A DNA stretch of 64,000 bases from the NCBI GenBank assembly GCA_017853555.1, contig JAFMJH010000004.1, forward strand, positions 1-64,000, written 5' to 3'. This document shows positions 16,284-50,368 of the stretch, one piece after another; the stretch's first letter is position 1; every line of letters begins with the position of its first letter. Below the pieces are notes generated by a model. It had not been told where the DNA came from. It did not search any database and was given only the letters and a program-made list of their open reading frames with translations. The translations under genes and the position numbers were made by a program. The stretch comes from Steroidobacteraceae bacterium. Its GTDB lineage: Bacteria > Pseudomonadota > Gammaproteobacteria > Steroidobacterales > Steroidobacteraceae.

Positions 16284-17570
16284 CTAGCAATTTTTTGATT
16301 TCGAGTCGTTGAGTGCTACTGCAAGCGCTCCAGCGTCCAGAGCGCCCTCCCACGTCGCCACCACTATCGTGGCGACCGCGTTACCGATGAAATTCGTGAC
16401 CGCGCGACATTCGGACATGAATCGATCTATCCCGAGGATCAACGCCATGCCCGCCACCGGAACCGATGGCACGACGGCAAGCGTGGCCGCCAAAGTGATG
16501 AAACCCGCGCCCGTGACGCCGGCCGCACCCTTGGAGCTCAGGATCGCGACCAACAACAGCGTGATTTCCTGCTGCAGCGTGAGCTCGACGCCCGTCGCTT
16601 GCGCGATGAACAGGGCCGCCAACGTCATGTAGATGTTGGTGCCGTCGAGATTGAAGGAATATCCGGTCGGCACGACGAGCCCGACGACGGACTTCGCGCA
16701 ACCGGCCCGTTCAAGCTTGCTCATCAGCGAAGGCAGTGCCGCCTCGGACGAACTGGTGCCGATCACGAGCCAAATCTCTTCGCGCAGATAACGCAACAAG
16801 GCCCAAAGCGAGAATCCTGAAAAATGGGCGATCGCACCCAGTACCAGCGCGATGAACAAGGCGGAGGTCAGATAGAACGTCGCGATCAGCGCGGCGAGGT
16901 TCACGATGGCGTCGACGCCGTACTTGCCGATCGTGAAAGCGAACGCGCCGAATGCGCCGACTGGCGCGAACTTCATCAACATCCCGACCATGCGCACGAA
17001 GACATCGCTGCCGGCATGCAGACCTTGCACGACACGAGCACCGGAGACGCCGAGCGACGAGACGCTCACGCCGAAAATCACCGCGATGAACAGCACCGGC
17101 AATACTTGACCGCCCGTGAAGGCCCCGACGAAGGTGTCGGGAATGATCGCCAGCAGAAAGGCGACGATGGTCTGCTCCTCGGCTTTGCCGACGTAATCTT
17201 TGACGGCTTTCGGGTCGAGCGTCGCCGGATCCACGCCCATGCCGGCGCCGGGCTGCACGACGTTCGCCACGATCAAGCCGATCACCAACGCAAGCGTCGA
17301 TACGGCCATGAAGTAGACCAATGCTTTGCCGGTCGTTCGTCCCAGACGCCCACCCGCACCGGCCTCGGCGATACCCGTCGCGACGGTGAAGAAAATCACC
17401 GGCGCGATCACCAATTTCACCAATTTGATGAACCCGTCACCGAGCGGCTTCAGTTGTACTGCGAAGTCCGGCAGGTAATGGCCGAGTACCGCGCCGACCA
17501 CGATCGCGAGCAGAACTTGCGCATACAAAGATCGCCACCAAGGCGCCGACGTCACCGCTACGTCGTTCAT
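16284..17570 (-). CDS. dctA: C4-dicarboxylate:cation symporter DctA-like
   Basis: A 428-residue DAACS-family transporter, the same length as E. coli DctA. Typical segments are present: [18 protein letters not shown] (the serine-rich re-entrant region), [20 protein letters not shown], and [13 protein letters not shown]. Together they form the core substrate- and cation-binding elements in the inner membrane. I set the start at [10 protein letters not shown], whose ATG overlaps the stop of the SGNH hydrolase gene by four bases (ATGA); longer versions run into that gene in another frame. A DctB/DctD-like pair lies divergently upstream, fitting regulation by external dicarboxylates such as succinate, fumarate or malate. 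A related aspartate/glutamate specificity cannot be excluded. Confidence 0.88.
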
Positions 17571-18370
17571 CTGCCGCGTCCGGCTGACTGCGCACGAAAT
17601 TCGGTGACCGTTTCCCAGGCCACCTGCTGCAGATAAGCGGCATCGGCGTCCGCAAGACCCGAGCGTGCCTTGTTGCCCACCGGGTTGATCCCGTAGAGCG
17701 TTGCCAAAATCACGCATGCGCCGAGATATGAACCTGCGACGGTCGGGTGTCGACGATCGTCGACCACCAAACGCAAATCCGGTCTTCCAGCCACCGATTT
17801 CGCGAACGCGAGCCCCGCAGGAACGACGACGGCATCATTGTCGCGACCGGCTTTTGAATACTCTGCGGCGAGGATCGGCGTCATCTCGGGCTTGTCCGAG
17901 TACGCCCAGGTCATGAACAAGGCCGGTTGCACACCGTGCTTGCGCGCGCTTTCGCTGTGCTTGCGCACCATCGCATGAAACTCGTCGCGGGTGCGCGGGT
18001 CCACCGGGCAGATCGTGCAATCGGCCATCAGCACGATATCGAAACCCCTGTCGGGAGCCTCGGTGAGTTCGTTGTTCTCCCCGACGGTTGCGCCGATGAC
18101 GCCCGGCGTCAGATAAAAGTCGACGTTGTGCCAGCCGAGCCGCCCGCCGCTGATCGTCACCGACGTATTGCGTATCCCCTTGCGCGTCGCGGCGGGCAAC
18201 GCCCCACCCAGCAACTTGCCGAGGTGGTTGTGCATCGAGTTGTTGTAATAGAAGAGGCTATTGCCCACCCAAAGAATCGAGGGCGGTTTGGCAGGCGCTT
18301 CAGCGGCAACCGCGACACCGAACGACAACGCGGCGCAAAGCGCGGCAATGAAATGCTTCTTGCTCATCAT
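17567..18370 (-). CDS. secreted SGNH/GDSL-type hydrolase-like protein
   Basis: A 267-residue protein with a signal peptide ([24 protein letters not shown]). Its SGNH-like features are [11 protein letters not shown] near residue 34 (block I serine in a GNS context) and [15 protein letters not shown] near the C-terminus (block V Asp-x-x-His). A periplasmic esterase or acyl hydrolase is likely. The gene heads the dctA operon and overlaps dctA by four bases. It might liberate a carboxylate that DctA then imports; this is inference only. Start alternatives are the first or second methionine of MMSKK. Confidence 0.72.
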
Positions 18371-18524: not shown

Positions 18525-20207
18525 ATGGTTCGCACTCCGCCCTCGTTTCGCATTCTGACCACCATCGGCCTCGTCGCGATGCTCATATCCGTATTCTTGG
18601 GCGGGCGCATCGGCAACGAATTCGAGTGGCGCAGGCAGACTCAGCAACTCGAATCGGACTTGTCACTCCGACGCGAATTGCTGCGCAGCGAAATCGAGCG
18701 GCATCGCCTGTTGCCCGAAACGCTGGCGGGCGATTCGCAACTTGCTCGCGCCATCGACCCGGCCGTGTCGACGAACGAGCGACGTTCGCTGTCATTGGCC
18801 TTGAGCGGTCGCTTCGAACAGTTGGCGCGCAGCGACGGTGCCGCCACGCTGTATCTCATCGACGCGAACGGCACCACCGTCGCCTCGAGCAACTATCGCT
18901 CGCCCGACAGCTTCGTCGGTCAAAACTATTCCTTTCGCTCCTATTTCGTCGACGCGAGACGGGACGGCGCCGGCATGTTGTTCGCGCGCGGCACGGTCAG
19001 TCGCAAACCCGGGCTCTATCTCGCGCATCGGCTCGACGGCGGTGGAGGCGTGGTCGTCGTCAAAGTCGAATTCGACGATATCGAACTCGGGTGGCGAAAA
19101 CGCGGTGAACAGACCTTCGTCACCAACGAGGCGGGCGAAGTCCTGCTCACCTCGAACCCCGATTCGCGTTTCAAAATCTTGCTTGACCTCGGAAAGACCG
19201 ACGAGCGACGCATGATCGATGCACGCGCCACGCTCGATGCACCCCGATGGACTCTCACGGTTCGCCGCGACGTCGGCGATGCGGTGCGCACCGCGAGGAA
19301 CATCGGGTGGTTGACGGCGGGATTGCTCGGTGCGTTGTTGACGCTCATCCTGGGGACGATTCTGGTCGCGCGCGAGCGGCGCGAACGCACGCAGCGCGAA
19401 CTCGAATCACTCGTCGAACAACGCACCGAAGAGCTGCGCAATTCCAACCAACGGCTGGTACTCGAAATCGATGAACGCGCGCGCGCCGACGCTCGGGTGC
19501 AAAAGCTGCGCGATGATCTGGTTCAGGCAAATCGGCTTGCGGTACTCGGTCAGATTTCCGCTGGCGTAGCCCACGAAATCAATCAGCCCGTCGCCGCGAT
19601 ACGCACCAACGTGGACAACGCCGCGGTGCTGCTCGCCCGAGGTCGACAAACCGAATGCGAGGAAAATTTGCGGGCGATCGTTTCTTTGACGGATCGCATC
19701 GGCTTGATCACCGACGAGCTGCGGGAATTCGCCCGGCGCACTCCAATCGAGCGCAAACCCACGCGACTTGCCGCGGCGATCGACGGCGCCTGCATTCTGC
19801 TCGACGCCCGCTTGCGCAGCGCCTCGATCACGCTGCACAAGAACCTCTCGCCGACCGATCCGCAAGTCATCGCCAATCGGACCAAAATCGAACAGGTCAT
19901 CGTTAATCTGCTGCAAAATGCGATCGAAGCGCTCGCCGACACGTCGATGCCCACCATCACCATCGAAACGGGTTCAAGCGCGACGGGACATTGGATCGCG
20001 ATCCGCGACAACGGACCCGGCATTCCCGATGCGCAACGTGACGAGTTGTTCGTCCCTTTTTCGTCGACCAAGCCGCTCGGTCTCGGTCTCGGCCTCGTGA
20101 TCTGTCGCGACATCATGGCCGATCTCGGCGGCACATTGGATTTCGAATCCGTCGCGGGACCGGGCGCGCGCTTCGTCGCGCGTTTTCCGGCACGTGAGAT
20201 CGCGTGA
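18525..20207 (+). CDS. dctB: DctB-like sensor histidine kinase
   Basis: A 560-residue membrane sensor. TM1 is near residues 9-25, followed by a periplasmic double-PAS-like sensor region (about 30-260) with YLIDANGTTVASSN and the NYSFRSYF segment typical of DctB. TM2 is near 265-288. A coiled-coil linker follows, then the dimerisation box GVAHEINQPVAAI with phosphoacceptor His350. The ATPase domain shows NLLQNAIEAL (N box), DNGPGIPD (G1) and GLGLGLVI (G2). It probably senses periplasmic C4-dicarboxylates and phosphorylates the adjacent regulator, whose start overlaps its stop. It is transcribed divergently from the dctA operon. Confidence 0.88.
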   Translation: MVRTPPSFRILTTIGLVAMLISVFLGGRIGNEFEWRRQTQQLESDLSLRRELLRSEIERHRLLPETLAGDSQLARAIDPAVSTNERRSLSLALSGRFEQLARSDGAATLYLIDANGTTVASSNYRSPDSFVGQNYSFRSYFVDARRDGAGMLFARGTVSRKPGLYLAHRLDGGGGVVVVKVEFDDIELGWRKRGEQTFVTNEAGEVLLTSNPDSRFKILLDLGKTDERRMIDARATLDAPRWTLTVRRDVGDAVRTARNIGWLTAGLLGALLTLILGTILVARERRERTQRELESLVEQRTEELRNSNQRLVLEIDERARADARVQKLRDDLVQANRLAVLGQISAGVAHEINQPVAAIRTNVDNAAVLLARGRQTECEENLRAIVSLTDRIGLITDELREFARRTPIERKPTRLAAAIDGACILLDARLRSASITLHKNLSPTDPQVIANRTKIEQVIVNLLQNAIEALADTSMPTITIETGSSATGHWIAIRDNGPGIPDAQRDELFVPFSSTKPLGLGLGLVICRDIMADLGGTLDFESVAGPGARFVARFPAREIA

Positions 20208-21550
20208 TGCGCAGCGACCGAGCCGAGCGCGTCATCCTGTTCGAAGACGACGACGACGTACGTCGCGCGATCGTCCAATCATTGGAGCTTGAGGGATTTG
20301 CAGTCTCGGCGTTCCCGTCCGCAAATCCTCACGCCAACGCGATCGATCGCGACTTCGACGGAATCGTGATCAGCGACATCCGCCTGCCGGGCATGGACGG
20401 CAGACAGATTTTTCGTTCGGTACGCGAACGAGATCGCGAATTGCCGGTGATCCTGATCACGGGACACGGTGAACTTCAGGAAGCCGTGGATCTGATGCGC
20501 GAAGGCGCTTACGACTTCATTTCCAAACCCTTCGCTGCACCGCGACTGCTGGCGAGCGTACGCAACGCCCTCGAGCAGCGTGCGCTCGTGCTCGACAATC
20601 GACGACTGCGCGAGCGGCCGACGAACACCTCTATCCCGTTGCCGATGCAAGGCGAGAGCGACCGTATCGCTCAACTTCGCAATATCGTGCGTGACATTGC
20701 CGACACCGATGTGCCGGTGCTGGTCGTCGGCGAGACGGGCACGGGCAAAGAAACGATCGCGAAGATGCTGCATCAAGGTGGCCGCCGGCGTAGCGGTGCT
20801 TTGGTCGTTCTCGATTGCGCCGCACTGCCGGATCAGCTGATCGATGCGGAGCTCTTCGGCTCCGAGACGATCGTCGCCGGCATGAGCCGGCGCAGCGTCG
20901 GTCGCATCGAACTCGCCGACGGAGGAACGTTGTTCCTCGACAATGTGGATAACCTGTCTCCGGCGGCGCAAGCACGCCTGTTGCGCGTCGTCGAGGAAAA
21001 GAAGTTCACGCCGACCGGCACGAAATCATCGCGGTCCGCCTCGTTCCGTGTCGTTTCGGCATCGACCGTCGATCTCGTGAAGCTCGTCGAAGCCGGCCGT
21101 TTCCGGTCGGATTTGTTTTTCAGACTGAACACCGTCACCTTGCAACTGCCCCCGTTGCGCGAGCGGCGTGACGACATCGCGACCCTCTTCGTGCAATTGC
21201 TGGGCTCCGCTGCACAACGTCTCAAGCGCCCGCCGCCGACCCTGACGCGGGCGGTCAAAAGTCATCTGTACGAATACGGGTGGCCGGGAAACATTCGCGA
21301 GCTCGGTCATTATGCCGATCGAATCGTACTCGGAATCGACCGGGTTCCCGTCTCCCCGATCGAGATGGATCTCGATCCTCTGCCCGAGCTCGTCGATCGC
21401 TTCGAAGCGAGCTTGATCAAAGATGCGTTACGCTCGACTCGCGGCAGCGTCAAAGCGGCATTGGGCGTACTGAAAATCCCCAGAAAGACGTTTTACGACA
21501 AGATCGCGCGTCACGGCATCGATCTCGATGCCTTTCGGGATCAGGCATGA
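20207..21550 (+). CDS. dctD: DctD-like NtrC-family response regulator lacking the GAFTGA loop
   Basis: A 447-residue regulator with three domains. The receiver has an acidic pocket at 13-17, Asp57 in VISDIRLPGMDG, T85 and K107. The AAA+ domain has an intact Walker A (GETGTGKE, 175-182) and an arginine-finger region RFRSDLFFRLN. The C-terminal Fis-type helix-turn-helix is intact. Two key features of sigma54 activators are altered: after ELFG (215-218) the expected GAFTGA loop reads IVAGMS (222-227) with about one residue deleted, and Walker B is FLDN (Asn246) instead of FLDE. It may therefore bind DNA but not remodel sigma54-RNA polymerase, as in sigma70-type family members. TGATG overlap with dctB; a GTG three bases earlier is an alternative start. 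Confidence 0.87.
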   Translation: MRSDRAERVILFEDDDDVRRAIVQSLELEGFAVSAFPSANPHANAIDRDFDGIVISDIRLPGMDGRQIFRSVRERDRELPVILITGHGELQEAVDLMREGAYDFISKPFAAPRLLASVRNALEQRALVLDNRRLRERPTNTSIPLPMQGESDRIAQLRNIVRDIADTDVPVLVVGETGTGKETIAKMLHQGGRRRSGALVVLDCAALPDQLIDAELFGSETIVAGMSRRSVGRIELADGGTLFLDNVDNLSPAAQARLLRVVEEKKFTPTGTKSSRSASFRVVSASTVDLVKLVEAGRFRSDLFFRLNTVTLQLPPLRERRDDIATLFVQLLGSAAQRLKRPPPTLTRAVKSHLYEYGWPGNIRELGHYADRIVLGIDRVPVSPIEMDLDPLPELVDRFEASLIKDALRSTRGSVKAALGVLKIPRKTFYDKIARHGIDLDAFRDQA

Positions 21551-21729
21551 AGTACGAACCGCAATGCTGGAACTGCAGGTTCTTTCGCGTCACGTGGGAG
21601 CCGCAGCTGCCCTACGCCTGCGAGGCACTGGGTTTCAAAAGCAAGGCTCTGCCGCACCTCGAAGTGCTGCGGACCGACGGCAGACCGTGCCAGGCCTACA
21701 CACCGAAACCGACCGAACCGGCGCGCTGA
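21547..21729 (+). CDS. small conserved four-cysteine protein
   Basis: A 60-residue protein starting MKYEPQCWNCRFF. Its ATG overlaps the dctD stop (ATGA). Cysteines at 7, 10, 25 and 48, with a CxxC pair and the conserved-looking pieces FRVTWEPQLPYAC and FKSKALP, suggest a small metal-binding (probably zinc) fold. From memory, similar roughly 60-residue proteins are common in beta- and gammaproteobacteria and are sometimes mislabelled as uracil-DNA glycosylase; they are far too short for that. Role unknown. Confidence 0.7.
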   Translation: MKYEPQCWNCRFFRVTWEPQLPYACEALGFKSKALPHLEVLRTDGRPCQAYTPKPTEPAR

Positions 21730-21734
21730 TCGGC

Positions 21735-22805
21735 TCAACGACTCGCGACGCCGCCTCGCTGCATACGCCAAAAAGCGAATAGCGCTACGCAGGCCACGAG
21801 GGCATGCAAGCTCCAGAACGCAACGGAGCCCGCGACGACATTGCGGGACGAGAATGTCGTCAAGCCGATGGTCGCGAACGAATAGACGAAAAACACCACG
21901 ATCGCGAGTGGCAGACGCGCATAAGGCCCCTCCCGCGGTCGGGTCGTGGAGAGCGTGAGTGCCAATACCGCGAGAATCAGGACCATCAACGGCAAACCCA
22001 ATCGGCCGTTGAGCTCCGCTCGCGCCTTCGGCTCGTTCGAGGTCCAAAGATCTGTCGTCGGGCGCGCGTCGGGACGATTGCAACCGGCCTTGATCGCCGG
22101 GATCGCAAAGCTCGCCGCATATGTCCCGAACGACACGAGGCGGTAGTCGGCGCGTCCGGGAACGCCTTCATATCGTCGCCCCGACACCAACTTGACTCGT
22201 ACGAGATCGAGATCCGGACGTGGCTCGATCTGCCCGCGTTCGGCAACGATCACTTCGATCGAGTCACCGGTTTGACGCTTGATGAATACCTTTTTCAGCG
22301 CACCATCCGCGCCAACCGACTCGACGAACAACACGACGCCGGCGCCGTAGGACTGGAACTTGCCCGCGGCCACCGGAGCCAGCGCCGCGGTGCGTGCCGC
22401 CTGCCCGCGCTCCGCTGCCGCGCTGCAGAGACTGAGCGGCGCGAGATACAGCGACAGAAACGCTTGCAACACCGCCACGGGTACCGCGAGCCACAACACC
22501 GGTACCAAAAGAAATCCGGGTGAACATCCGCTGGTACGCATCGCGCCGAGCTCGCCGTCACTGCCGAAGCGTCCATAAGCCAGCACCGTGGCGAGCAATA
22601 CCGTGATCGGCAAGATCACCGGCAAATTCGCGATCGAGACCCAACCGACGAATTTGAGCAGGATGTCGGTACCGATTTCACGGGTCGCGGCGCGGTTCAG
22701 CGCGATAGGCAATTGCGAAAAAATCAGGATTGCGGTGAGTACGACCGTCACCGACGCCCAGGATCGGACCAATCCGTCGAACAAATGTTTTTGCAGAATC
22801 TTCAT
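21735..22805 (-). CDS. lptF: LPS export permease LptF
   Basis: A 356-residue YjgP/YjgQ-family permease. It has three N-terminal TM segments, a periplasmic beta-jellyroll region (about 130-255) and three C-terminal TM segments. ILPITVLLATVLAYGRFGSDGE and GAMRTSGCSP match LptF's second helix and coupling region. LptF and LptG form the membrane core of the LptB2FG ABC transporter, which extracts LPS from the inner membrane. The start ATG overlaps the arnD stop by four bases (ATGA), so it is translationally coupled to lipid A modification genes. lptG is not adjacent but lies at 50369-51439; lptF and lptG are normally neighbours. Confidence 0.85.
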   Translation of the reverse strand: MKILQKHLFDGLVRSWASVTVVLTAILIFSQLPIALNRAATREIGTDILLKFVGWVSIANLPVILPITVLLATVLAYGRFGSDGELGAMRTSGCSPGFLLVPVLWLAVPVAVLQAFLSLYLAPLSLCSAAAERGQAARTAALAPVAAGKFQSYGAGVVLFVESVGADGALKKVFIKRQTGDSIEVIVAERGQIEPRPDLDLVRVKLVSGRRYEGVPGRADYRLVSFGTYAASFAIPAIKAGCNRPDARPTTDLWTSNEPKARAELNGRLGLPLMVLILAVLALTLSTTRPREGPYARLPLAIVVFFVYSFATIGLTTFSSRNVVAGSVAFWSLHALVACVALFAFWRMQRGGVASR

Positions 22806-23710
22806 GCTGACGGGACACCTCGAACCGCGAGCGTACCCGAACGTCCGGCCACCGTACCCAGGATCACGGGGGCGTGCGGCAACGCAGCGCGGTGCGTCGC
22901 GCTGGCCATCGCCTCCAGGGTGACGAGTTGACGCCCCTGCGCTCGCCAACCGCGCAACAGTCGCAAAAATGAATCGCGGTAGGCCTGCCCCTCGAGTTCC
23001 GCGTGCAAGGTGTAGACGTGGTCGCGGTTCGGCGTCGCCGCCGTCGCCGCGAGCAGAAAATCGACCGGATCGGCACCCGCCAAGCACTCGTGACCGATCA
23101 GTTCATCGAGCGTCGGCAAGGTGGTGGGCCATTGCGGCACGGCATCCGAGAGGTTGGGGACGACGGGCACGAACGGTCCGTCGCCTCGCGTGTCGGAGGC
23201 GTGCGTGAACCCGAATTCGCGCTCCAGGGCGAACAAATGTTCATTGGTTTGCCAGCCGGCCGCACCGTGTACGCGCGCAGCGACGCCGAAAACGTCATGA
23301 AAAATGTCACAGGCGCGCCGAAATTCGTTGCGAGTCCAGCGTTCGTCCGCGGTTGCAACCCGGTCTTGCCACTCGACATGATCGTGGACGTGCACCCCGA
23401 CCTCGTGACCTCGCTTTGCCGTCTCGCGCAACACGTCCCGGCAACGCGCCGCGATGCGCGGCCCGGGCAGCAGCGTGCCGTAGAGCAAAGTGCGCAATCC
23501 GTAATTCGCGACCACGGACGTACGCCGCACTTTTTGAAGGAACCCGGCGCGAAATACGCGTCGGATCGCTCGCCCGGTATGGTCGGGGCCCAACGAAAAC
23601 AGGAAGGTAGCCTGCACGTCTTCCTCGGCGAGCACCTGCCAGAGCGCGGGCACGCCGTCCCGCGTACCGTGCCAGGTGTCGACGTCGATCTTGAGTGCAA
23701 GCTGCGCCAA
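22802..23710 (-). CDS. arnD: ArnD, 4-deoxy-4-formamido-L-arabinose-phosphoundecaprenol deformylase
   Basis: A polysaccharide deacetylase-fold enzyme of 302 residues (E. coli ArnD has 296). It removes the formyl group from undecaprenyl-phosphate-L-Ara4FN. Visible motifs are KIDVDTWHGTRDGVP (metal-binding aspartate region), FSLGPDHTGR, HEVGVHVHDHVEWQ (metal histidines), AAGWQTNE and YTLHAELEG; all align with E. coli ArnD. The reading frame has no ATG at the right place, so I chose TTG 23710 (MAQLALKIDVD). It lies 10 bases after the formyltransferase stop with AAGG upstream. Confidence 0.88.
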   Translation of the reverse strand: MAQLALKIDVDTWHGTRDGVPALWQVLAEEDVQATFLFSLGPDHTGRAIRRVFRAGFLQKVRRTSVVANYGLRTLLYGTLLPGPRIAARCRDVLRETAKRGHEVGVHVHDHVEWQDRVATADERWTRNEFRRACDIFHDVFGVAARVHGAAGWQTNEHLFALEREFGFTHASDTRGDGPFVPVVPNLSDAVPQWPTTLPTLDELIGHECLAGADPVDFLLAATAATPNRDHVYTLHAELEGQAYRDSFLRLLRGWRAQGRQLVTLEAMASATHRAALPHAPVILGTVAGRSGTLAVRGVPSA

Positions 23711-23720
23711 CGTGGAACCT

Positions 23721-24647
23721 TCAACCGCCGATGAACAGCGACTCGATGCCCTGCTCCGCCATCCACGCGTCGATCGACTGCCCGCCGACGCGGCCATCGA
23801 GCACGAGCAGATCGCGGCCATCGGCGCATTCGATGAGCACCGCGCCCGCACGGCGCAGCAGGCGGGCCCTATCACGTGGCGTGCCGATTTGCGATTGAAG
23901 ACGCGTGCGATACACGAACAGAGGGCCACCCTCCATTTCGAAGTAGGCGCCCGGATACGGCGGTGCCACCGCACGGACGAGATCGTGAATTTCTTTGGCC
24001 GATGAACGCGGATCGATGCGTCCGTCTTCGGGTCTGCGGCGTCCGTAGTAACTGCCGGTTTGAAGATCCTGCACGATACGCGGCGCAGTCCCGGTCACCA
24101 ACTCGGGCCACGCGCGACACAACACGATTTCAGCCGCCACGACCACCTTGTCGAATACTTCGCGCGCCGTGTCCTCGCCCAGAATCGGCACCGCTTGCTG
24201 ACCGACGATGTCGCCCGCATCCGGCTTGTCGATCATGTAATGCAGCGTCGCACCGGTCTGCGTCGCTCCTTTGACGAGCGCCCAATTCACGGGGGCACGA
24301 CCGCGGAACTTCGGCAGCAGCGAGCCGTGAATGTTGAGTGCGCCACGGGTCGCGGTGGCGAGCAATTGAGCGCCGATCATGTTGCGGTAATAAAAAGAAA
24401 AGATGAACGCCGGCGCGATGGATCGCAATCGCGCGAGCAGCATCGGGTCGCCCGCGGACTCCGGCATCACCACCGGGATGCCGAGCTCGGTTGCCGTATC
24501 GGCAACGCTGCCATACCAGCGCTGCTCGTTGGGGTCATCCGCATGGGTGACGACGAGTTCGACCTCAGCGCCGAGCGAATGCAAGGCCTTCAGACAGCGC
24601 ACGCCGACTTCCGAATAAGCGAAGACGACGCAACGGCGATCGCTCAC
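23721..24647 (-). CDS. arnA: ArnA formyltransferase domain as a stand-alone protein
   Basis: A 308-residue homologue of the N-terminal half of E. coli ArnA. It transfers a formyl group from N10-formyltetrahydrofolate to UDP-L-Ara4N. The catalytic signature is NIHGSLLPKFRGRAPVNWAL (Asn and His), with MIDKPDAGDIVGQ carrying the catalytic aspartate. The C-terminal OB-like domain follows. The decarboxylase half of ArnA is not fused here; it is encoded separately at 28754-29800, at the other end of the cluster. The gene overlaps arnC by four bases. Confidence 0.88.
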   Translation of the reverse strand: MSDRRCVVFAYSEVGVRCLKALHSLGAEVELVVTHADDPNEQRWYGSVADTATELGIPVVMPESAGDPMLLARLRSIAPAFIFSFYYRNMIGAQLLATATRGALNIHGSLLPKFRGRAPVNWALVKGATQTGATLHYMIDKPDAGDIVGQQAVPILGEDTAREVFDKVVVAAEIVLCRAWPELVTGTAPRIVQDLQTGSYYGRRRPEDGRIDPRSSAKEIHDLVRAVAPPYPGAYFEMEGGPLFVYRTRLQSQIGTPRDRARLLRRAGAVLIECADGRDLLVLDGRVGGQSIDAWMAEQGIESLFIGG

Positions 24648-25585
24648 GATCTATCGTCCTGCAGAGACTCGAGCACCAGATAGCGCGGACGTCGCCGCAC
24701 TTGCTGGTAGATGCGGCCGATGTATTCGCCGACGATTCCGAGCCCGAACAGCAACACGCCGATCAGGAACGTCACGATGCCGAACAGCGTGAACAAACCC
24801 TCTGCCTCGGGGCCCATCACGATGCGTCGGACGGCCAAGTACGCGACGAACCCGAGTGAAATCATCGACACCAACAAGCCGAACAGGGAAACCAGCTGCA
24901 ACGGCACGAGCGAAAAACCCGTCATCAGATCGAAATTCAGACGGATCAGCTTGTACAGCGAGTATTTGGTTTCACCTGCCGCACGCTCCTCGTGCGCGAC
25001 GGGGATCTCCGTTCTGCGCGTAGCGAAACCGTACGCGAGCGCAGGCACGAAGGTACTCACCTCTTCACAGGCATTCATCGCATCGACCACGTTGCGCCCG
25101 TAGCCGCGCAACATGCAGCCTTGGTCGGTGATTCGAATATCCGTGATGCGATCACGGATCGCGTTGATGAGGTTGGATGCGGTTCTGCGCCACCAGACGT
25201 CCTGCCGCAACTGCCGTACCGTGCCGACGAAGTCGTGGCCCGCATCGAGTTCGGCGACCACACGTCCGATTTCCTCGGGAGGATTCTGCAAGTCGGCATC
25301 GAGCGTGACGACGTGGCGGCCGCGCGTACGCTCGAGCCCGGCGAGGATTGCCAGATGCTGGCCCACGTTGAAGCGCAGCAGCAAAACGCGCACGACGTCG
25401 CGACGCTTTGCAAAAATCGCACGCAACGCCGCAGCCGACCCGTCTCGGCTGCCGTCATCGATGAAAATCACTTCATACGGCCGCCGCAACGCATCGAGAG
25501 CGGGGAACAGGCGCGCGCAGAGCAGCGGCAAGCCCTGCTCTTCGTTGAAGATCGGAATGACGACCGAAATATCCGGCGCGCTCAT
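24644..25585 (-). CDS. arnC: ArnC, undecaprenyl-phosphate Ara4FN transferase
   Basis: A 313-residue GT2 glycosyltransferase with two C-terminal TM helices. It moves Ara4FN from UDP to undecaprenyl phosphate on the inner face of the inner membrane. Motifs are VVIPIFNEEQGLP, VIFIDDGSRDGS, the metal-binding TLDADLQNPPEE, and ITDQGCMLRGY. The C-terminal segment GLGIVGEYIGRIYQQVRRRP is characteristic of ArnC and related dolichol-phosphate transferases. Overlaps with arnB and arnA at both ends suggest one polycistronic message. Confidence 0.9.
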   Translation of the reverse strand: MSAPDISVVIPIFNEEQGLPLLCARLFPALDALRRPYEVIFIDDGSRDGSAAALRAIFAKRRDVVRVLLLRFNVGQHLAILAGLERTRGRHVVTLDADLQNPPEEIGRVVAELDAGHDFVGTVRQLRQDVWWRRTASNLINAIRDRITDIRITDQGCMLRGYGRNVVDAMNACEEVSTFVPALAYGFATRRTEIPVAHEERAAGETKYSLYKLIRLNFDLMTGFSLVPLQLVSLFGLLVSMISLGFVAYLAVRRIVMGPEAEGLFTLFGIVTFLIGVLLFGLGIVGEYIGRIYQQVRRRPRYLVLESLQDDRS

Positions 25586-26727
25586 GCCCGCGACTCCGCG
25601 ACTACGGCATGCGCGGCATCGATCACGCGCTCGACTTCGGCCAACGTCATCTCCGGAAACAAGGGCAAGGTCACCGTTTCACGCCCGATCCGCTCGGCCA
25701 CCGGGAAATCACCGTCTTTCCAACCGAGTTTGCGATAGGTCGCCAGCGTATGGATGGCGCGATAATGGACACCGACCGCAATCCCGCGTGACTGCATGCG
25801 ACGCATGAACTCGGCACGATCGATCTTCATCCGATCGAGCGGCAGGAGCGGCGCAAACATGTGCCAGGAGTGGCCATCGTCACCGCGCGCCGGCAGTCGC
25901 AGCATCGAATCCGCGGGCCAACGATCGAAATAATGCGCAACGAGTTGGCGGCGACGCGCATTGAACTCGTCGAGTCGCCGCAGTTGACCGATCCCGATCG
26001 CTGCAGCGATATCGGAAAGATTCGCCTTCATCCCGGGAAAGTGCACTTCGAGCCCGTCGACGCCGATGCGTTCGACGCCGTTGAACCGGTGACGTTCGAT
26101 TTGACGCGCCTCGTCGGCGTCGTTGCAGACGATCGCACCGCCCTCGCCCGAGGTCATGTTCTTGTTCGGGTGAAAACTGAAGCAGACCAGATCGCCAGTC
26201 GCCCCGATTCGACGTCCTCGCCAGCTCGAACCGATGGCATGCGCCGCGTCCTCGACGACGCGCAATCGATGCCGTCGCGCAATGGCGTACAAGCGATCGA
26301 GATCGACGGACAATCCCGCAAAATGCACGGGCAACAACGCACGCGTCCGCGGCCCGATACGACTTTCGAGGGCGTCGAGATCGATGTTGCGCGTATCGAG
26401 GTCGACATCCACGAACACCGGTCGCGCACCGAGTCTCAAAATGACGTTGGCGGTCGAGCACCAACTCATCGGCGTGGTGATCACCTCGTCGTCGGGGCCA
26501 ACACCCGCAACCGCGAGCGCGATCTCGAGCGCCGCGGTCGCCGAGGTCATCACACGCACAGTCCGGCCGCCGACATAGTCGGCGAGCGCCGACTCGAATT
26601 GTTGCACTCGCGGCCCGCTGGCCAACCAGCCGGAGCGCAGCACATCGACGACGGCAGCGATCGTTTCGTCGTCGATGCTCGGCTTCGTGAAGGGCAAGTT
26701 GTTCAAAGGCAATCCTCGCAGCGACAC
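25582..26727 (-). CDS. arnB: ArnB, UDP-L-Ara4O aminotransferase
   Basis: A 381-residue PLP enzyme of the DegT/DnrJ/EryC1 family. It aminates UDP-4-keto-pentose to UDP-L-Ara4N using glutamate. The PLP lysine lies in FSFHPNKNMTSGEGGA. Further family motifs are TTPMSWCSTANVI, VVEDAAHAIGSSWRG and GVHYRAIHTLATYRKLG. The length equals that of known ArnB proteins. It starts three bases after the small flippase gene stops and overlaps arnC. Confidence 0.9.
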   Translation of the reverse strand: MSLRGLPLNNLPFTKPSIDDETIAAVVDVLRSGWLASGPRVQQFESALADYVGGRTVRVMTSATAALEIALAVAGVGPDDEVITTPMSWCSTANVILRLGARPVFVDVDLDTRNIDLDALESRIGPRTRALLPVHFAGLSVDLDRLYAIARRHRLRVVEDAAHAIGSSWRGRRIGATGDLVCFSFHPNKNMTSGEGGAIVCNDADEARQIERHRFNGVERIGVDGLEVHFPGMKANLSDIAAAIGIGQLRRLDEFNARRRQLVAHYFDRWPADSMLRLPARGDDGHSWHMFAPLLPLDRMKIDRAEFMRRMQSRGIAVGVHYRAIHTLATYRKLGWKDGDFPVAERIGRETVTLPLFPEMTLAEVERVIDAAHAVVAESRA

Positions 26728-26730
26728 AAC

Positions 26731-27102
26731 TCAGGAACGTGCGACGAGCCAGACACCGACGATGATGACGCCGATACCCGTCCAGCGCATGGCGGAGACG
26801 GGTTCGTTCAGCAACGCCGAGGCCAAGCCCGCGGTTGCCAAATATCCGAGCGACAACATCGGGTATGCCTGACTCACGGGAACACGTGACAGACCGACGA
26901 CCCAGGTCACTACCGAAATGCCGTAGGCGGCGAGCGCCAACCAGAATGCCGGCACGAGCAGCAGCTTCTGCGCCGAAGCAAGCATTTCCACGGCGTCACC
27001 GCGAATGGGTCCGGACTCTGCGGTCGCCACCTTGAGACCGAGTTGCGCAGCCGCGTTCAACACCACGCCGAACATCAAAAACAGAAAATCGGCGAATTTC
27101 AT
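26731..27102 (-). CDS. small four-helix EamA/SMR-type protein, probable Ara4N-lipid flippase (ArnE/ArnF-like)
   Basis: A 123-residue protein with four TM helices, of the EamA/SMR fold. SRVPVSQAYPMLSLGY in helix 3 is typical. In enterobacteria ArnE and ArnF form a heterodimer that flips undecaprenyl-phosphate-Ara4N to the periplasm. Here only one such gene is present, placed between arnT and arnB, so a homodimer or a distant partner is implied. ATGA-type overlap with arnT supports co-translation. Confidence 0.8.
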   Translation of the reverse strand: MKFADFLFLMFGVVLNAAAQLGLKVATAESGPIRGDAVEMLASAQKLLLVPAFWLALAAYGISVVTWVVGLSRVPVSQAYPMLSLGYLATAGLASALLNEPVSAMRWTGIGVIIVGVWLVARS

Positions 27103-28757
27103 CGTCGCGCCACCACCACGGATCGCGGATCCGCATCCGGCAAGCGTCGCCCTTCGAAACCGAGTGCACGCAATTCGTCATAGGCACGAGGTTCGATGAA
27201 TGCCACGGCGTCACGCTCCTCGCGCCAGCGTACGACGAACGTCTCCAGAGTCTCGATGTACCGTGACGGATCGGCTGCGCCGACTCTTCGCAGGCCTTCC
27301 TCGAGCTCGCCCTTGTATGCGACCAGCGTCATGCTGCGTCCGAGATAGAACGAAGCCGAGTGGCGATACTGAGCCACGCTGTACAGCGTGGTCGTCGGTC
27401 GTACCTCGCTGCGGATCGTGGCGACCAAGGCGCGCGCACTGCGCTCCGGCGGCAGGACCGCATAGGCAACCAGCAATCCCTGCCAGGCGAACAATGCCGA
27501 CAACGCGACGGGCATCCAGAGTGCGTGTTGCGAGCGTCCGCGCAAGTGCGAGAACCACGCGAATGCCAGCGCGACGAGCCCGACGCCGCATGCCGCGAAC
27601 ACGGGCAGGTCGAACGCGCCGTCGCGCCGACGATCGAAGATGATCATCGCTACGGACAAGACGCCGATCAGCAGCGATTGCAGGATCAGCGCGTGACGAC
27701 TGAGTTTGCGGTCGTCCTCCGACTGCGACGCGAGCAAGAGCATCAGCGGCGGGATCATCGGCAAGATGTATGGCGGCAGCTTGGAGTTGGACAACGAGAA
27801 AAACACGAACGTGACCAGGCACCAGAAAATCAGGAATCGCAGCGCCGGAAACGCCGCGCCTTCCGGTTTTTCTCGCCACGAGCGCGCGAGACCGTGCCGC
27901 CAGGTACCGATCACCGGCAGCGCGGCGAGCAGAACCAGAGGGATGAAATACCACCAAGGTTCGTCACGACGATGAACTTTGGTCAAAAATCGCGCGAAAT
28001 GCTCGTGTATGAAAAAGAACTGCAGAAACCCGGGATTGCGGGTCTCGACCGACCAGAACCAGGGCGCGACGATGGCCAGGAACAGCAGTCCACCCGGCCA
28101 GAACCGCAGCCGCTTCAGAAAGCCGGCATCGCGATGCACGATTGCGTGAACGACGAGCGTCGCGCCGGTGAGCACGAGGACCACGATGCCCTTCGTGAGC
28201 ACGGCCGCCGCGAGCGCGGCCCAGGCCAGCAACATCAGTTTTTCGGCTTGATCTTCTTCGCTACGTTGCGCGACCAAAAATGTCGCCAATGCGGCGAATG
28301 CGAAAAACGCAAACGACTGATCGAGCAGATTGACGTGGCCGATCAAGACGTAAAACGGACTGATCGCCAAAAAGAACACCGCACGCCATGCGATGGCGGT
28401 CGAGAAGCCGAGGCCACGCGACAACCAGAAGAGCAGAGGCATGCAACCGAAGGCGAGCGCGAATGCCCAGAACCGCGAGCCAGCCTCCGAGACGCCCGTG
28501 AGGGCATAGATCGCTGCCGTAGCCCAGTATTGCAGCACGGGCTTTTCGAAATAGGGCAAACCGTTCAGCGTCGGGGTGATCCAGTCGCCACTCGCCCACA
28601 TCTCGCGCGGAATTTCCGCATAGCGCCCCTCGTCAGGGTCGAACAGCGAGTGGGTGCCGATGGACGCGAACCATGCAAACGCGATGAACAACCACGCAAG
28701 CCAGGCGCGGTCGCGCGGACTGCCTTCCCCGGACGGGAAGGTTGATTGATCGCTCAC
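27099..28757 (-). CDS. arnT: ArnT, lipid A aminoarabinose transferase
   Basis: A 552-residue GT-C fold glycosyltransferase with about a dozen TM helices and a soluble C-terminal domain. The first periplasmic loop carries FDPDEGRYAEIPREMWASGDW, with the conserved aspartate-glutamate pair, and TLNGLPYFEKPVLQYW. These match ArnT/PMT-family catalytic features. It transfers L-Ara4N from undecaprenyl phosphate to lipid A phosphates on the periplasmic side, lowering negative charge and giving resistance to cationic peptides and polymyxins. It overlaps both neighbours by four bases. Confidence 0.88.
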   Translation of the reverse strand: MSDQSTFPSGEGSPRDRAWLAWLFIAFAWFASIGTHSLFDPDEGRYAEIPREMWASGDWITPTLNGLPYFEKPVLQYWATAAIYALTGVSEAGSRFWAFALAFGCMPLLFWLSRGLGFSTAIAWRAVFFLAISPFYVLIGHVNLLDQSFAFFAFAALATFLVAQRSEEDQAEKLMLLAWAALAAAVLTKGIVVLVLTGATLVVHAIVHRDAGFLKRLRFWPGGLLFLAIVAPWFWSVETRNPGFLQFFFIHEHFARFLTKVHRRDEPWWYFIPLVLLAALPVIGTWRHGLARSWREKPEGAAFPALRFLIFWCLVTFVFFSLSNSKLPPYILPMIPPLMLLLASQSEDDRKLSRHALILQSLLIGVLSVAMIIFDRRRDGAFDLPVFAACGVGLVALAFAWFSHLRGRSQHALWMPVALSALFAWQGLLVAYAVLPPERSARALVATIRSEVRPTTTLYSVAQYRHSASFYLGRSMTLVAYKGELEEGLRRVGAADPSRYIETLETFVVRWREERDAVAFIEPRAYDELRALGFEGRRLPDADPRSVVVARR

Positions 28758-29800
28758 GCGGCGCCGCCGCCTTTCGTCTTGCGCTCGAGATCGACGTAGT
28801 ATGCGATCGTCTTGCGCACCGCATCACGCAGATTGGTGCTCGGTGCCCAGCCGAGCTGCTCCGCGGCCGCCTTGATGGCAGGCACGCGAATTTGGATGTC
28901 TTGATAATACTTGCCGTAGTACTCGCCCGCCGACACGTCCGTGATCGACGCAGCCGCTGCACGCTCGGCCAGTTCGGAAAATTCTTTGCCGATCTCGACC
29001 ATCATCGTGGCAAGTTCGGCGATCGAGGCGCAATTTCCGGGGTTGCCGATGTTGAATATGCGGCGCGACGCGCAACCGTCTTTGTTCTCGATGATTTTGA
29101 CCAGGCAGTCGATCGCATCATCGATGAACGTGAACGAACGCTTCTGGCTTCCGCCGTCGACCAGGCGGATGGGTCGGCGGTACATGATGTTCGAGAGAAA
29201 TTGCGTGAACACCCGCGAACTGCCTTCTTTGGGCTCGTCGATATTGTCGAGATTCGGCCCGATGAAGTTGAACGGCCGGAACAGCGTGTAGTCGAGACCT
29301 TCGGCGACACCGTACGCGTAGATCACGCGATCGAGCAGTTGCTTCGATGCGGCGTAAATCCAGCGCTGCTTCTCGATCGGACCGTACACGAGCGAACTCG
29401 TTTCTTCGTCGAGCACGCTGTCCGGCGACATGCCGTAGATTTCGGAGGTCGACGGAAAAATCAGGCGCTTTTTGTATTTGACGCAGTGCCGCACGATCGC
29501 GAGATTGGCTTCGAAGTCGAGCTCGAACACTCGCAGGGGGTTGGTGACGTATTGCGCCGGATTGGCGATGGCCACCAGCGGGATGATCGCGTCGCATTTT
29601 TTGACGTGATACTCGACCCACTCGCGATTGATGGTGATGTCGCCCTCGACGAAGTGGAATCGGTCGGACTTCGGCAGATCACCGAGCTTGTTGTCCGACA
29701 GGTCGATACCGAACACTTCCCAATCCGGACGCCCCTGGATGATGGCGGCGGTGAGCGCGCTGCCGATGAACCCATTGGCGCCGAGAATCATGATTTTCAT
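28754..29800 (-). CDS. arnA: ArnA decarboxylase/dehydrogenase domain as a stand-alone protein
   Basis: A 348-residue NAD-dependent sugar-nucleotide enzyme matching the C-terminal half of E. coli ArnA. It oxidatively decarboxylates UDP-glucuronate to UDP-4-keto-pentose, the first committed Ara4N step. It shows the nucleotide motif ILGANGFIGSAL, the catalytic IFPSTSEIYGM (Ser/Thr) and YAASKQLLDRVI (YxxxK), and RPFNFIGP. PSTSEIYGM and RSFTFIDDAIDCLVKIIEN strongly resemble ArnA. It is the first gene of the arn cluster. A TATACT -10-like element lies only seven bases before its ATG, so the message may have a very short leader. Confidence 0.88.
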   Translation of the reverse strand: MKIMILGANGFIGSALTAAIIQGRPDWEVFGIDLSDNKLGDLPKSDRFHFVEGDITINREWVEYHVKKCDAIIPLVAIANPAQYVTNPLRVFELDFEANLAIVRHCVKYKKRLIFPSTSEIYGMSPDSVLDEETSSLVYGPIEKQRWIYAASKQLLDRVIYAYGVAEGLDYTLFRPFNFIGPNLDNIDEPKEGSSRVFTQFLSNIMYRRPIRLVDGGSQKRSFTFIDDAIDCLVKIIENKDGCASRRIFNIGNPGNCASIAELATMMVEIGKEFSELAERAAAASITDVSAGEYYGKYYQDIQIRVPAIKAAAEQLGWAPSTNLRDAVRKTIAYYVDLERKTKGGGAA

Positions 29801-32244: not shown

Positions 32245-33564
32245 TCAAGATCGGGCGATCGATGCGATCGCGGTGAATCGCCCCGCACTACGTATGAAGC
32301 GCAACTCGCCGCCGAGCTTGTGCGTCAGACGTTGCACGATGGCGAGGCCTAGCCCGACTCCGGCACCCTGACGCGCCGCATCGAGCTTCACGAAGGGACT
32401 GCAGGCTTCGCGCTCGAGCGACTCCGGAAATCCGCTGCCGTGATCGGTCACCTGCAATTCCAAAACGCGAGGATCCGGCGAAACGATCAGCACGTCCACC
32501 GGCGCCCTACCGTGCTCGAGCGCGTTGCCGATCAGATTATCGAGAATGCGACGCACCATGGAACCTGCCACGGGCCACGCGGCATCGACGCGCAAGTCCA
32601 GCGTGACCTCGTGCCCGAGCGCGCGATGCGCCGCGATCAATTCCTGCGCAACCGCGCCGATCGGCGTGCGTTCGCCGCCATCGAGGTCACGATCCTGCAG
32701 ATAATCGGCAAATTGCCGCACGATGCGATCCATGGCGGCGACGTCGCCGCGCATCCCGTCTGCATCGGCCGCTTCGGGCAACATCGCGATGCGCATGCGC
32801 AATCGCGTCAACGGTGCGCGCAAATCGTGCGGAATTCCGCCGAGCAGCACCCGCCGTTCGGTCTCGATCTCGGCGAGACGCGCCAGCATGGCATTGAAGG
32901 ACTGCGTGAGCCGTTGCAACTCGCGCGGCCCCGTCAACTCCAAAGGCTCCGGCCAGGATGCTCCGACGCGCGCCGTCGCCTCGCTCAGTCGCTCGATCGG
33001 TCGCGTGATCGATGCTGCATACAAAACGCTCACCACGACCAGCAGAGACAAGACCAAAAGTATCGCGGCCCATGGCGTTGGACGCGAAAACTCCGGCGCT
33101 TCGGACACCAGCACGACGACCCACCACGGCTCGCCGTCGATGTATTGCTTGATCCAGTAGCGCGGGCTCGGTGTCGCGCGAAACAGCACTTCGGCCGGTT
33201 GCGTCGCATAACGTTCGATCGCGCGACGCAGCGCTTCGTCACGAATCACCGCCGACTCGGCCTCGCGCGGATCCACGGTCGGCATCGACTGCTCGGCGAC
33301 CGGCACGAGTTGCACGGTGCCACTCGCCGTCAACGCTTGTGCGATCTCGCGCCGCTGCCAAGGCGGCACCGCCACCAGTACGCGACGCGCCGAATACACC
33401 AACGCGGCCGCACTGCGAGCGCGCGTATCGCGGTAGTCGGTCGAGTATTCGCGTCGTTGAAACTCGAACCCGACGGCGACGATCGCGAGGCTGGCGATCA
33501 CCACACCGACAAGCAACAGGACCAGGCGCTGCGCAAAACTGATCGACGGCGCGAAATGCGTCAC
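32245..33564 (-). CDS. EnvZ-like sensor histidine kinase
   Basis: A 439-residue sensor. TM1 is near residues 13-30, a periplasmic domain runs about 35-160, and TM2 is near 168-188. A HAMP linker (ITRPIERLSEATARVG) follows. The H box GIPHDLRAPLTRLRMRI resembles EnvZ. The ATPase domain has NLIGNALEHG, DHGSGFP and GVGLGLAIVQR. It should phosphorylate the OmpR-like regulator whose stop overlaps its start. Position near the arn cluster makes it a candidate PmrB-like or envelope-stress sensor, but the periplasmic region has no motif I recognise for metals or peptides. Confidence 0.85.
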   Translation of the reverse strand: MTHFAPSISFAQRLVLLLVGVVIASLAIVAVGFEFQRREYSTDYRDTRARSAAALVYSARRVLVAVPPWQRREIAQALTASGTVQLVPVAEQSMPTVDPREAESAVIRDEALRRAIERYATQPAEVLFRATPSPRYWIKQYIDGEPWWVVVLVSEAPEFSRPTPWAAILLVLSLLVVVSVLYAASITRPIERLSEATARVGASWPEPLELTGPRELQRLTQSFNAMLARLAEIETERRVLLGGIPHDLRAPLTRLRMRIAMLPEAADADGMRGDVAAMDRIVRQFADYLQDRDLDGGERTPIGAVAQELIAAHRALGHEVTLDLRVDAAWPVAGSMVRRILDNLIGNALEHGRAPVDVLIVSPDPRVLELQVTDHGSGFPESLEREACSPFVKLDAARQGAGVGLGLAIVQRLTHKLGGELRFIRSAGRFTAIASIARS

Positions 33565-34289
33565 GATATCGCCCGACTGGCCGGAACGAACACGTAGCCC
33601 ACGCCCCAGACCGTCTGTATGTAGCGCGGCGCACGCGGATCCTGTTCGAGATATTTGCGCAAGCGTGAAACCTGCACGTCGATCGCGCGATCACTGAGCT
33701 CCTGCGCGGAATCTCGGGCCAGGGCCAGCAGCTGATCACGGCGCAATGGTTCAAGCGGGTGATCGGTCAGCGCTTTCAAAAGTGCAAACTCGCCACTCGT
33801 CAGCGATACCCTTTCCTGACCACGCAGCAACTCTCGCGAGGCGCGATCGAAGATCCAGTCCCCGACCCGTACGTTCTCCGAAATGTCGGGAGCCGCGACG
33901 GGCAGACGCGCCCGGCGCAACAATGCATCGATGCGTGCGACCAGCTCGCGCGGCTCGAACGGCTTGCCGATGTATTCGTCGGCACCCAACTCCAGGCCGA
34001 GCACCCGATCGAATGGCTCGTCGCGCGCGGTGAGCATGATGATGGGGACGGTCTCGCCCCGGCCTCGCAAGCGCTTGCAAACGGAGAGACCGTCCTCCCC
34101 GGGCAGCATCAGATCGAGCACCAGCACGTCCGGCCGGAAGCGCGCCAATCGCCGCTCCACGTCGGCAGCGTCCGGCAGGGTCGCGATCTCGAAGTCGTAA
34201 CGACCGAGGTACTTCTCCAGCAACATCCGCAACTCCGGGTCGTCATCGACCACCAGAATACGGCGTCGCTTCGGGTGCTCTGCACTCAT
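33561..34289 (-). CDS. OmpR-like response regulator
   Basis: A 242-residue regulator (E. coli OmpR has 239). The receiver shows RILVVDDDPELR, phospho-acceptor DVLVLDLMLPGEDG, MLTARDEPFD and the lysine in YIGKPFEPREL. A winged-helix DNA-binding domain follows, with LTSGEFALLKAL, RAIDVQVSRLRKYLEQDP and QTVWGVGYVF. I chose ATG 34289 because the protein then matches OmpR in length, although no good ribosome-binding site precedes it. Four-base overlap with the kinase gene indicates co-translation. Confidence 0.87.
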   Translation of the reverse strand: MSAEHPKRRRILVVDDDPELRMLLEKYLGRYDFEIATLPDAADVERRLARFRPDVLVLDLMLPGEDGLSVCKRLRGRGETVPIIMLTARDEPFDRVLGLELGADEYIGKPFEPRELVARIDALLRRARLPVAAPDISENVRVGDWIFDRASRELLRGQERVSLTSGEFALLKALTDHPLEPLRRDQLLALARDSAQELSDRAIDVQVSRLRKYLEQDPRAPRYIQTVWGVGYVFVPASRAIS

Positions 34290-34443
34290 GGGTGGAGGCA
34301 ACGATGACAGGAAAATGCACGGACGGACAGCGTCGACACATTTTGAAACAACTTGGCGTCCGTGGCAGCCGGGCGAGATGCCATTGCCGTACCGCCGTCG
34401 CGGCGTTAACGTTGTGCCGTCGACGCAACGCGCCCGGAACGCC
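34290..34443. promoter_or_regulatory. divergent intergenic region between the OmpR-like gene and a membrane-protein gene
   Basis: A 154-base spacer from which both neighbours are transcribed outward. It should hold promoters for the two-component pair and for the plus-strand gene at 34444. I see no clear -35/-10 pair or perfect palindrome in it. Confidence 0.35.
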
Positions 34444-34998
34444 ATGAGCCTTCAAGACCCGAACTTCGACTTTTTCGCTTCAGACGCCAAAGTCGGCGAG
34501 TGCCGCCGGCAAAGCGATCAGCTCGATTATTTTGTGCATGTGTACTGCAAACTCTACGGCGACTGGAAAGACGCCCAAGCGAGGGTTGCCGACCTGCGAC
34601 GCAATCAGAATCTGGCACTGATACTCGGTGCGGCCATCGGCATTCCCTTGATCTCGGCACTTGCTTACCTGCATATCAACCAGCTCGTCATCGTCATGAC
34701 GCTGTTGCTGCTCTTCGTCGGCGGCTATCTATTGCTGGATCAGGTACGCCGAGAACAAGACCGTTGCGAGCAACTGAACCGGGAGCGCGAGAGTTTCGGT
34801 TTGTCCGCCTATTTGACGGGCAGCGATTTATCCCTCGACCAACTCGAGGCGTCGATCTCGAAGGATCTGACCGGCCACTGGGTGCTGACGCCGGCTTACG
34901 AACCTTGGCGAGACGCGCATTTGCGTGGCGTATTCCACCGGGTGTACGGCGTGCCCGTACCCCTCGACGTCATCAAGCAAATTTGCCAGCGTGCTTGA
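34444..34998 (+). CDS. uncharacterised two-helix membrane protein
   Basis: A 184-residue protein starting MSLQDPNFDFFASD. It has an N-terminal soluble stretch predicted to be helical (residues 15-50) and two adjacent TM segments near 56-76 and 80-100. A charged coiled-coil-like region RREQDRCEQLNRERE follows, then a C-terminal domain. I do not recognise the family. An upstream extension is open but looks like non-coding sequence. It converges with and overlaps the lipocalin-like gene by 26 bases. Divergent from the OmpR-like gene, so possibly regulated by it. Confidence 0.6.
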   Translation: MSLQDPNFDFFASDAKVGECRRQSDQLDYFVHVYCKLYGDWKDAQARVADLRRNQNLALILGAAIGIPLISALAYLHINQLVIVMTLLLLFVGGYLLLDQVRREQDRCEQLNRERESFGLSAYLTGSDLSLDQLEASISKDLTGHWVLTPAYEPWRDAHLRGVFHRVYGVPVPLDVIKQICQRA

Positions 34999-48223: not shown

Positions 48224-49055
48224 GCCCAAAGATCTCATCCCCAAAGCATACGTCAATACGAGCCGCGGGCAGTTGCACTATCGACGTTCGGGCACCGGCA
48301 ACCGGTCATTGCTGTTGATCCATTGGTTACCCCTGTCCTCGCGCATGTATGCCACCGTCATGCCGGAACTGGCGGAACTCGGATACGACGTGATCGCGCT
48401 CGATCTTCTGGGCTACGGACGTTCCGATCCGCGACCGGAGCAATGGTCGATGGAGATGTGGGCCGACAACGTGCACGAGGCCATGGAGCAGTTGTGCACT
48501 CGACCGGTCACGGCCGTCGGAGGTCACAGTGGCGCCTGCGTGGTCACCGAAATCGCGCTGCGTCATCCGGACGCGGTCGAAAACGTCATCCTCGACGGAT
48601 GCCCGCTACCGACTCCGGAGCTGACCAAAACATTTGCGGCGATGCGCCAAAATTCACGCCCCGGACCGACGGCCGATCTCGGCCACGAAGCGCTGGTGTT
48701 CCGAACGGTACGCACGACCTATGAGCACTATGTGCCGGGATTCACGGTGACGCCGCAGACCATCGAAGCCATTTGGCCGGCGATGATCGACTATCTGGAA
48801 ACCGACTTCGTTTCTTCAGCGCCCATTTCGGTTTCTTACGATCTCGCCGCGCGACTCCCGCAAATCCGGCAACCGCTCGCACTGCTCTCGGCGACGACCG
48901 ACACCCTCTTCGGCAATCATGCCCGCGCCTGCACGCTCGCCGCCACGGCGCAGCAACACGTCTTCGAAGGACACCATCCGCTGCACGACCCCGCACGTTG
49001 CCGCGAGTACGCGCAGGTGATTGCGCGTTTCAGCGACCGACGCCGAGTTCTTTGA
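48222..49055 (+). CDS. alpha/beta hydrolase
   Basis: A 277-residue hydrolase starting MPKDLIPKAYVNT. LLLIHWLPLSSRMY is in the oxyanion position, LDLLGYGRSDP follows, and the nucleophile elbow reads VGGHSGACVV (GHSGA) with serine present. The histidine lies in FEGHHPLHDP. It resembles C-C hydrolases and haloalkane dehalogenase-like proteins. Its ATG sits in the same CATG as the start of the divergent membrane-protein gene. It overlaps the convergent amidohydrolase gene by 26 bases. Confidence 0.8.
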   Translation: MPKDLIPKAYVNTSRGQLHYRRSGTGNRSLLLIHWLPLSSRMYATVMPELAELGYDVIALDLLGYGRSDPRPEQWSMEMWADNVHEAMEQLCTRPVTAVGGHSGACVVTEIALRHPDAVENVILDGCPLPTPELTKTFAAMRQNSRPGPTADLGHEALVFRTVRTTYEHYVPGFTVTPQTIEAIWPAMIDYLETDFVSSAPISVSYDLAARLPQIRQPLALLSATTDTLFGNHARACTLAATAQQHVFEGHHPLHDPARCREYAQVIARFSDRRRVL

Positions 49056-50340: not shown

Positions 50341-50368
50341 AGCTATCCTCCCGATCGGAAACGGAGTC

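Follow-up and report, generated by a model that had tools for sequence, protein, structure and literature searches.

Why does the gene of an LPS exporter subunit stand at the end of an operon for lipid A decoration? The question is raised by the window, a stretch of 64,000 nucleotides from the draft genome of an uncultured Steroidobacteraceae bacterium (G000; GenBank GCA_017853555.1, contig JAFMJH010000004.1). On its minus strand, from position 29800 to 21735, eight packed, co-directional genes follow one another in the order arnA_DC-arnT-arnE/F-arnB-arnC-arnA_FT-arnD-lptF, with DC and FT standing for the decarboxylase and formyltransferase halves of ArnA (Table 1). Five of the seven junctions are four-base overlaps, among them that between arnD and lptF, which reads ATGA. 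Gene calls and family models bear out the initial annotation, made from the letters alone, that the arn cluster ends with lptF, which overlaps arnD by four bases. Profile models find all enzymes of the Ara4N pathway, from UDP-glucuronate to the transfer onto lipid A, represented in the cluster. An arn model is the top match for ArnB, ArnC, ArnD, ArnT and ArnE/F, yet all five proteins score below its cut-off; with five of the seven arn proteins in this position, we infer that the sugar is Ara4N. A search for consensus sigma-70 sites between 21400 and 30100 returned no promoter-like sequence, compared with a mean of 1.8 in shuffles.

Table 1. Genes of the arn-lptF operon and related features of the window (coordinates are window positions).
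Feature	Position	Strand	Evidence
arnA, decarboxylase half (UDP-4-keto-pentose synthase type), first gene	28754..29800	-	NF008872, 551.7 bits (cut-off 294); Epimerase PF01370
arnT, Ara4N transferase	27099..28757	-	Arnt_C PF18583, 82.2 bits; PF02366; NF009784, 225 bits (below cut-off of 567)
arnE/F-like, single flippase subunit	26731..27102	-	ArnF model, 61 bits; ArnE model, 52 bits (both below cut-off); EamA
arnB, aminotransferase	25582..26727	-	PF01041; top NCBIfam match is the ArnB model, below cut-off
arnC, undecaprenyl-phosphate transferase	24644..25585	-	top NCBIfam match is the ArnC model, below cut-off
arnA, formyltransferase half	23721..24647	-	NF005414, 395.8 bits (cut-off 316)
arnD, deformylase	22802..~23710 (TTG start is a guess)	-	NF011923, 240.4 bits (below cut-off of 382)
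lptF, last gene	21735..22805	-	TIGR04407, 274.2 bits (cut-off 230); ATG overlaps the arnD stop by four bases
lptG, alone, presumed partner	50369..~51451 (start approximate)	-	TIGR04408, 284.4 bits (cut-off 240)
Sensor kinase and response regulator of EnvZ/OmpR type, ~2.4 kb ahead of the operon's first gene	32245..34445	-	EnvZ and OmpR models, neither cut-off reached

The last gene qualifies as LptF by the equivalog cut-off of its model and reaches only 66.1 bits with the LptG model, and its nearest relatives in the PDB are the LptF chains of LptB2FG. A genome search returned exactly two LptF/LptG genes, the arn-linked lptF and a lone lptG in the same window, the latter being the presumed partner of LptF. 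The sole lptF found is therefore the 3' gene of the arn operon, and the observation that raised our question is confirmed. The initial annotation went further and proposed that Ara4N addition and LPS export by LptB2FG would be co-translated, a proposal that a second lptF beside lptG would count against. None was found in the draft, which comprises 2.48 Mb in 74 contigs and is 93.8% complete. Because lptG lies outside the operon, co-translation with arn could concern LptF only and not LptB2FG, and the proposal has to be narrowed to this one subunit.

Which part of the cluster is unusual? The enterobacterial arn operon has the order arnBCADTEF. Every step of its pathway is also represented in the window, which differs from it by the split ArnA, by one ArnE/F-like gene instead of two, by gene order and by the appended lptF. 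Both ArnA halves exceed the curated cut-offs of the split-ArnA type (NF008872 and NF005414). The initial annotation had singled out the split ArnA and the single flippase gene along with lptF. As descriptions both hold, since FT and DC occupy two ORFs and the cluster contains, in place of an ArnE/ArnF pair, one gene scoring between the two; the halves do not, as had been stated, lie at opposite ends, FT being the sixth of eight genes. When 33 arn loci (one of them partial) were compared, FT and DC were found in separate ORFs in every one of the family's 25 complete loci, window included; outside the family they are separate in 5/7 loci and, unlike in the window, form one ORF in two members of the order (G172 and G122). 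ArnE/F matches never exceed one per family locus, and some loci have none. Common as they are in the family, the two features are uninformative on LptF, and we rejected them as the odd feature. The order DC-T-EF-B-C-FT-D is also shared with G072, G090, G129 and G305, and with G188 except for the EF match. None of G072, G090, G129 and G188 showed an lptF behind arnD; G305 is not counted since its contig ends ~190 bases past arnD. With this same limit for G305, lptF is the last gene in the window and in its relative G019 and was not seen there in the 23 other complete family loci. The unusual part of the cluster is the placement of lptF.

The initial annotation had pointed to relatives as the place to check the cluster. 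Among 23 genomes of the same genus, lptF and lptG are adjacent in 16 and apart in one (G019); two contain one lpt gene only (G014 and G016) and four contain none (G004, G005, G018 and G023), where the contigs of G004 and G023 start at pepA, so that a break at that site is likely. An arnD gene is present in two of the 23 (G019 and G021) and additionally in G024 of the same family. G019 has kept the identical eight-gene operon (protein identity to the window is 62.9–89.3%), including a four-base arnD/lptF overlap (GTGA), and has a lone lptG on another contig. In G021 and G024, arn is present and lptF-lptG are still paired elsewhere; in G021 the pair lies on a different contig and an amidohydrolase gene comes next after arnD. 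The arn genes of G000, G019 and G021 form one clade. In G016, which has a partial LptF of the window type at a contig end, we found no arnD; the 621,901 of ~1.4 million bases read gave no more than weak ArnB- and ArnA_DC-like matches. Since the window genome and G019 are both drafts (74 and ~180 contigs, respectively), the arnD-lptF junction might be an assembly artefact; both assemblies, however, show the same gene order and a four-base junction, with operon proteins that share 63–89% identity, and we regard an artefact as highly improbable.

The relatives also reveal where the two genes came from. In the relatives read, the standard locus of the genus is VOC-like gene-lptG-lptF-pepA-valS, in which pepA is identified by PF00883 and the names of the VOC-like and valS genes are provisional. 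In both G000 and G019, the VOC-like gene adjoins pepA and both lpt genes are missing; the two flanking genes are directly divergent, in G000 with ~40 bp between them. The window has the same two permease genes as this locus, one copy each, but lptF and lptG now stand 28 kb apart, and lptG occupies a new site whose neighbors are common to G000 and G019. The empty pepA site indicates that both lpt genes left it, lptF for the arn operon.

Several neighbors of the operon deserve description. The EnvZ/OmpR-like pair upstream (Table 1) may regulate arn-lptF, and the kinase is found upstream of arn in G019 too. A Cache-domain sensor kinase and a sigma-54-type response regulator (18525-21550) head toward the operon from the opposite strand. 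A dicarboxylate symporter gene (16284-17717) lies close by. Just beyond lptF, a small Cys-containing ORF is seen by eye on the plus strand (~21541-21729), with a similar one in G019 (L003, ~1-195). Next after lptG lies an amidohydrolase gene (49030-50385; Xaa-Pro dipeptidase model, above cut-off), a relative of which is the gene behind arnD in G021 (L005, 2639-4264). We considered an ancestral arn-lptF-lptG-amidohydrolase run as the source of both amidohydrolases and set it aside, because we found nothing of this kind next to the G019 lptG.

To place the arrangement in a wider frame, we surveyed genomes with arnD, which is present in 108/396 genomes of the order, 28/369 of the class and 52/398 of the phylum (the latter two counts each include the window's own genome), 186 distinct genomes in total. 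For the first 135, the coordinates of arnD and LptF/G were compared by eye among the matches listed; LptF/G was not found in three of them (G305, G319 and G390), and arnD lies at a contig end in some genomes (e.g. G305, G362, G377 and G397). From the last 51, leaving out G1124 and G1035, we read 49 flanks (1.5 kb each in 29 genomes and up to 5 kb in 20, three of the latter, L166, L168 and L171, ending ~100 bases or less past arnD) and saw no lptF behind arnD. Taken together, lptF directly follows arnD in 3/184 arnD genomes examined (G000, G019 and G452), among the matches listed and with some genomes contig-limited. LptF/G within 5 kb of arnD was found, again among the matches listed, in G000 and G019 (the overlapping lptF), G452, G061, G226, G236 and G733; in the last four, lptF-lptG lie 2.2–3.7 kb from arnD on the opposite strand, facing arn. 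In genus g20 and G733 (L048, L049, L050 and L121), the arn operon stands 2-4 kb from the pair and points at it from the other strand. In most other arn-bearing genomes examined, lptF and lptG are adjacent, among the matches listed. Outside the class, a pepA-like gene comes next after arnD in genus g442 (L153, L165, L170, L177 and L178), and neither lptF nor lptG was found near the g442 arnD within the stretches read.

G452 belongs to a different order, from which this genome alone was sampled. Its lptF follows arnD on the same strand with a gap of ~217 bp, and its lptG is still beside pepA with no lptF between. A quick tree with long branches does not group its LptF with that of the window. 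In view of the lptG left at pepA and the separate position in the tree, the placement in G452 most plausibly reflects a second move behind arnD that happened independently, and a functional matching of exporter and Ara4N would be a possible explanation for two such moves. Other moves have no link to arn: in genus g27, lptF stands behind a presumed ATP-grasp-like gene (L051, L054, L056 and L059; the native lpt site was inspected in G173), and in G465 lptG instead of lptF was relocated. The g27 lptF went to a place without evident LPS link, and relocation alone hence does not imply function. A chance landing of lptF behind arnD, adequately expressed and without functional tie to Ara4N, fits these moves and the rarity of the arrangement among arnD genomes. 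Excluding the window lineage, on the other hand, one of two recognized lptF moves ended directly behind arnD, for which we would estimate a chance of ~1 in 1000 (an after-the-fact figure that supposes a few thousand genes), and the four-base overlap is kept in both G000 and G019. We consider a neutral relocation unlikely.

LptF and LptG of this lineage have different histories in our trees. The LptGs of G000 and G019 fall among those of the genus, whereas their LptFs form, together with the partial LptF of G016, one clade (support 100/100) that falls outside the genus clade and inside the family (support 99/100). The stem of the arn-linked LptF amounts to 1.8 changes per column compared with 0.42 for LptG, and identity to the native genus LptFs compared is ~35–39%. 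This would be expected if an arn-linked lptF from an unsampled lineage had displaced the native copy, the alternative being a native copy that moved and diverged. Forced monophyly of all genus LptFs (AU p 0.073) and nested placement (p 0.147) are, however, not rejected, the protein stays inside the family, and lptG has also left its native site. We could not find a donor: the best other match in 369 class genomes is 36–37% identical (at E <= 1e-50), and a contig scan with two narrow peptide patterns gave no match beyond G019. A foreign origin of the gene appears to us unlikely, to about the same degree as a neutral move.

Divergence also bears on whether LptF, with LptG, has become specialized for Ara4N-bearing lipid A, such that export depends on arn and co-translation matches sugar and exporter. 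At near-invariant positions (counted without the rows G016, G014 and G326), G000 and G019 are altered in 16/58 cases in LptF and in 2/60 in LptG, so that, as in the stem lengths, LptF is the subunit that changed. Ten other sister pairs show 0-3 such LptF changes in 7/10; the exceptions are the g20 pair (8/63) and two g27 pairs (12/68 and 9/71), and six single rows range from 0 to 8, with G179 at the top (8/60). That LptF change is also raised in g27, where lptF has moved and arn is unlinked, and to a lesser degree in g20 and G179, where lptF and lptG are still adjacent, argues against reading it as adaptation to Ara4N. Differences between lptF of G000 and G019 at codon positions 1/2/3 are 0.295/0.165/0.599, a pattern that shows the gene to be under constraint.

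A precedent for such specialization exists in Burkholderia cenocepacia. According to the passages available to us, its LptB2FG is unable to export Ara4N-free LPS and an LptG D31H mutant can, residue 31 being the equivalent of Lys-34 in Klebsiella pneumoniae LptG (PMC5548808); excerpts of two further papers report both that arn is required and that a suppressor lies in lptG (PMC5377068, PMC8208086). The initial annotation suggested that the same link may be built into this operon. In our alignment, G000 and G019 have Leu, and thus no acidic residue, at the K34/D31 position. Of the 15 further genus members, 12 share the Leu, and the remaining three (G009, G015 and G021, the last with arn) have Val. 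Leu also occupies this position in 12/14 arn-less members aligned; the site carries no signature of Ara4N dependence, being Leu or Val genus-wide with or without arn, and a link of the Burkholderia kind is not borne out. Both cases may connect arn with Lpt; the link described in the available parts of the Burkholderia reports (PMC5548808, PMC5377068) is functional and runs through LptG residue 31, whereas that in the window is genomic and runs through lptF. The titles and passages searched, from a literature in which many journals lie outside coverage, contained no description of lptF within an arn operon. The precedent, the altered LptF and the move in G452 speak for a co-adapted exporter; the ordinary Leu in LptG, the changes in g27, g20 and G179 and the adjacent lptF-lptG of most arn-bearing genomes weigh against it, and we hold it to be doubtful.

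We favor a simpler account, to which we assign a probability of about one half: LptF would function as a regular subunit of LptB2FG, and its position behind arnD would force the arn genes to be expressed. In an ancestor of the window lineage, the lptF-lptG pair would have departed from its usual position next to pepA, with lptF becoming the final gene of the arn operon and lptG going to another site. LptF would still be an ordinary predicted subunit of LptB2FG, paired with the unlinked LptG. LptF is normally needed for viability. A single-copy gene of this kind, presumably essential here as well, that overlaps arnD as the last gene and is probably co-transcribed with arn would render expression of the entire operon obligatory, and lipid A would be expected to carry Ara4N at all times and not on induction. 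The ~217 bp between arnD and lptF in G452 could hold a promoter, which speaks against obligatory co-expression there. Obligatory co-expression is the safest mechanism for the arn-lptF arrangement.

A farther-reaching scenario, in which lptF was recruited at least twice independently to arn 3' ends through co-evolution of the export gate with Ara4N, LptB2FG accepting mainly Ara4N-LPS and arn being essential, strikes us as improbable. Coupling of lipid A decoration and LPS export is reported through suppressor genetics in B. cenocepacia, as far as the accessible portions of these reports tell (PMC5377068, PMC8208086). In this uncultured bacterium, evolution seems to have placed the gene of an LPS exporter inside the decoration operon itself, and LPS export and aminoarabinose decoration may be tied together. 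Its genus relatives without arn, or with paired lptF-lptG, offer natural before-and-after pairs for the question whether the exporter reads the Ara4N mark. Should the two be coupled by expression alone, a bacterium with obligatory, uninduced Ara4N would still be predicted.
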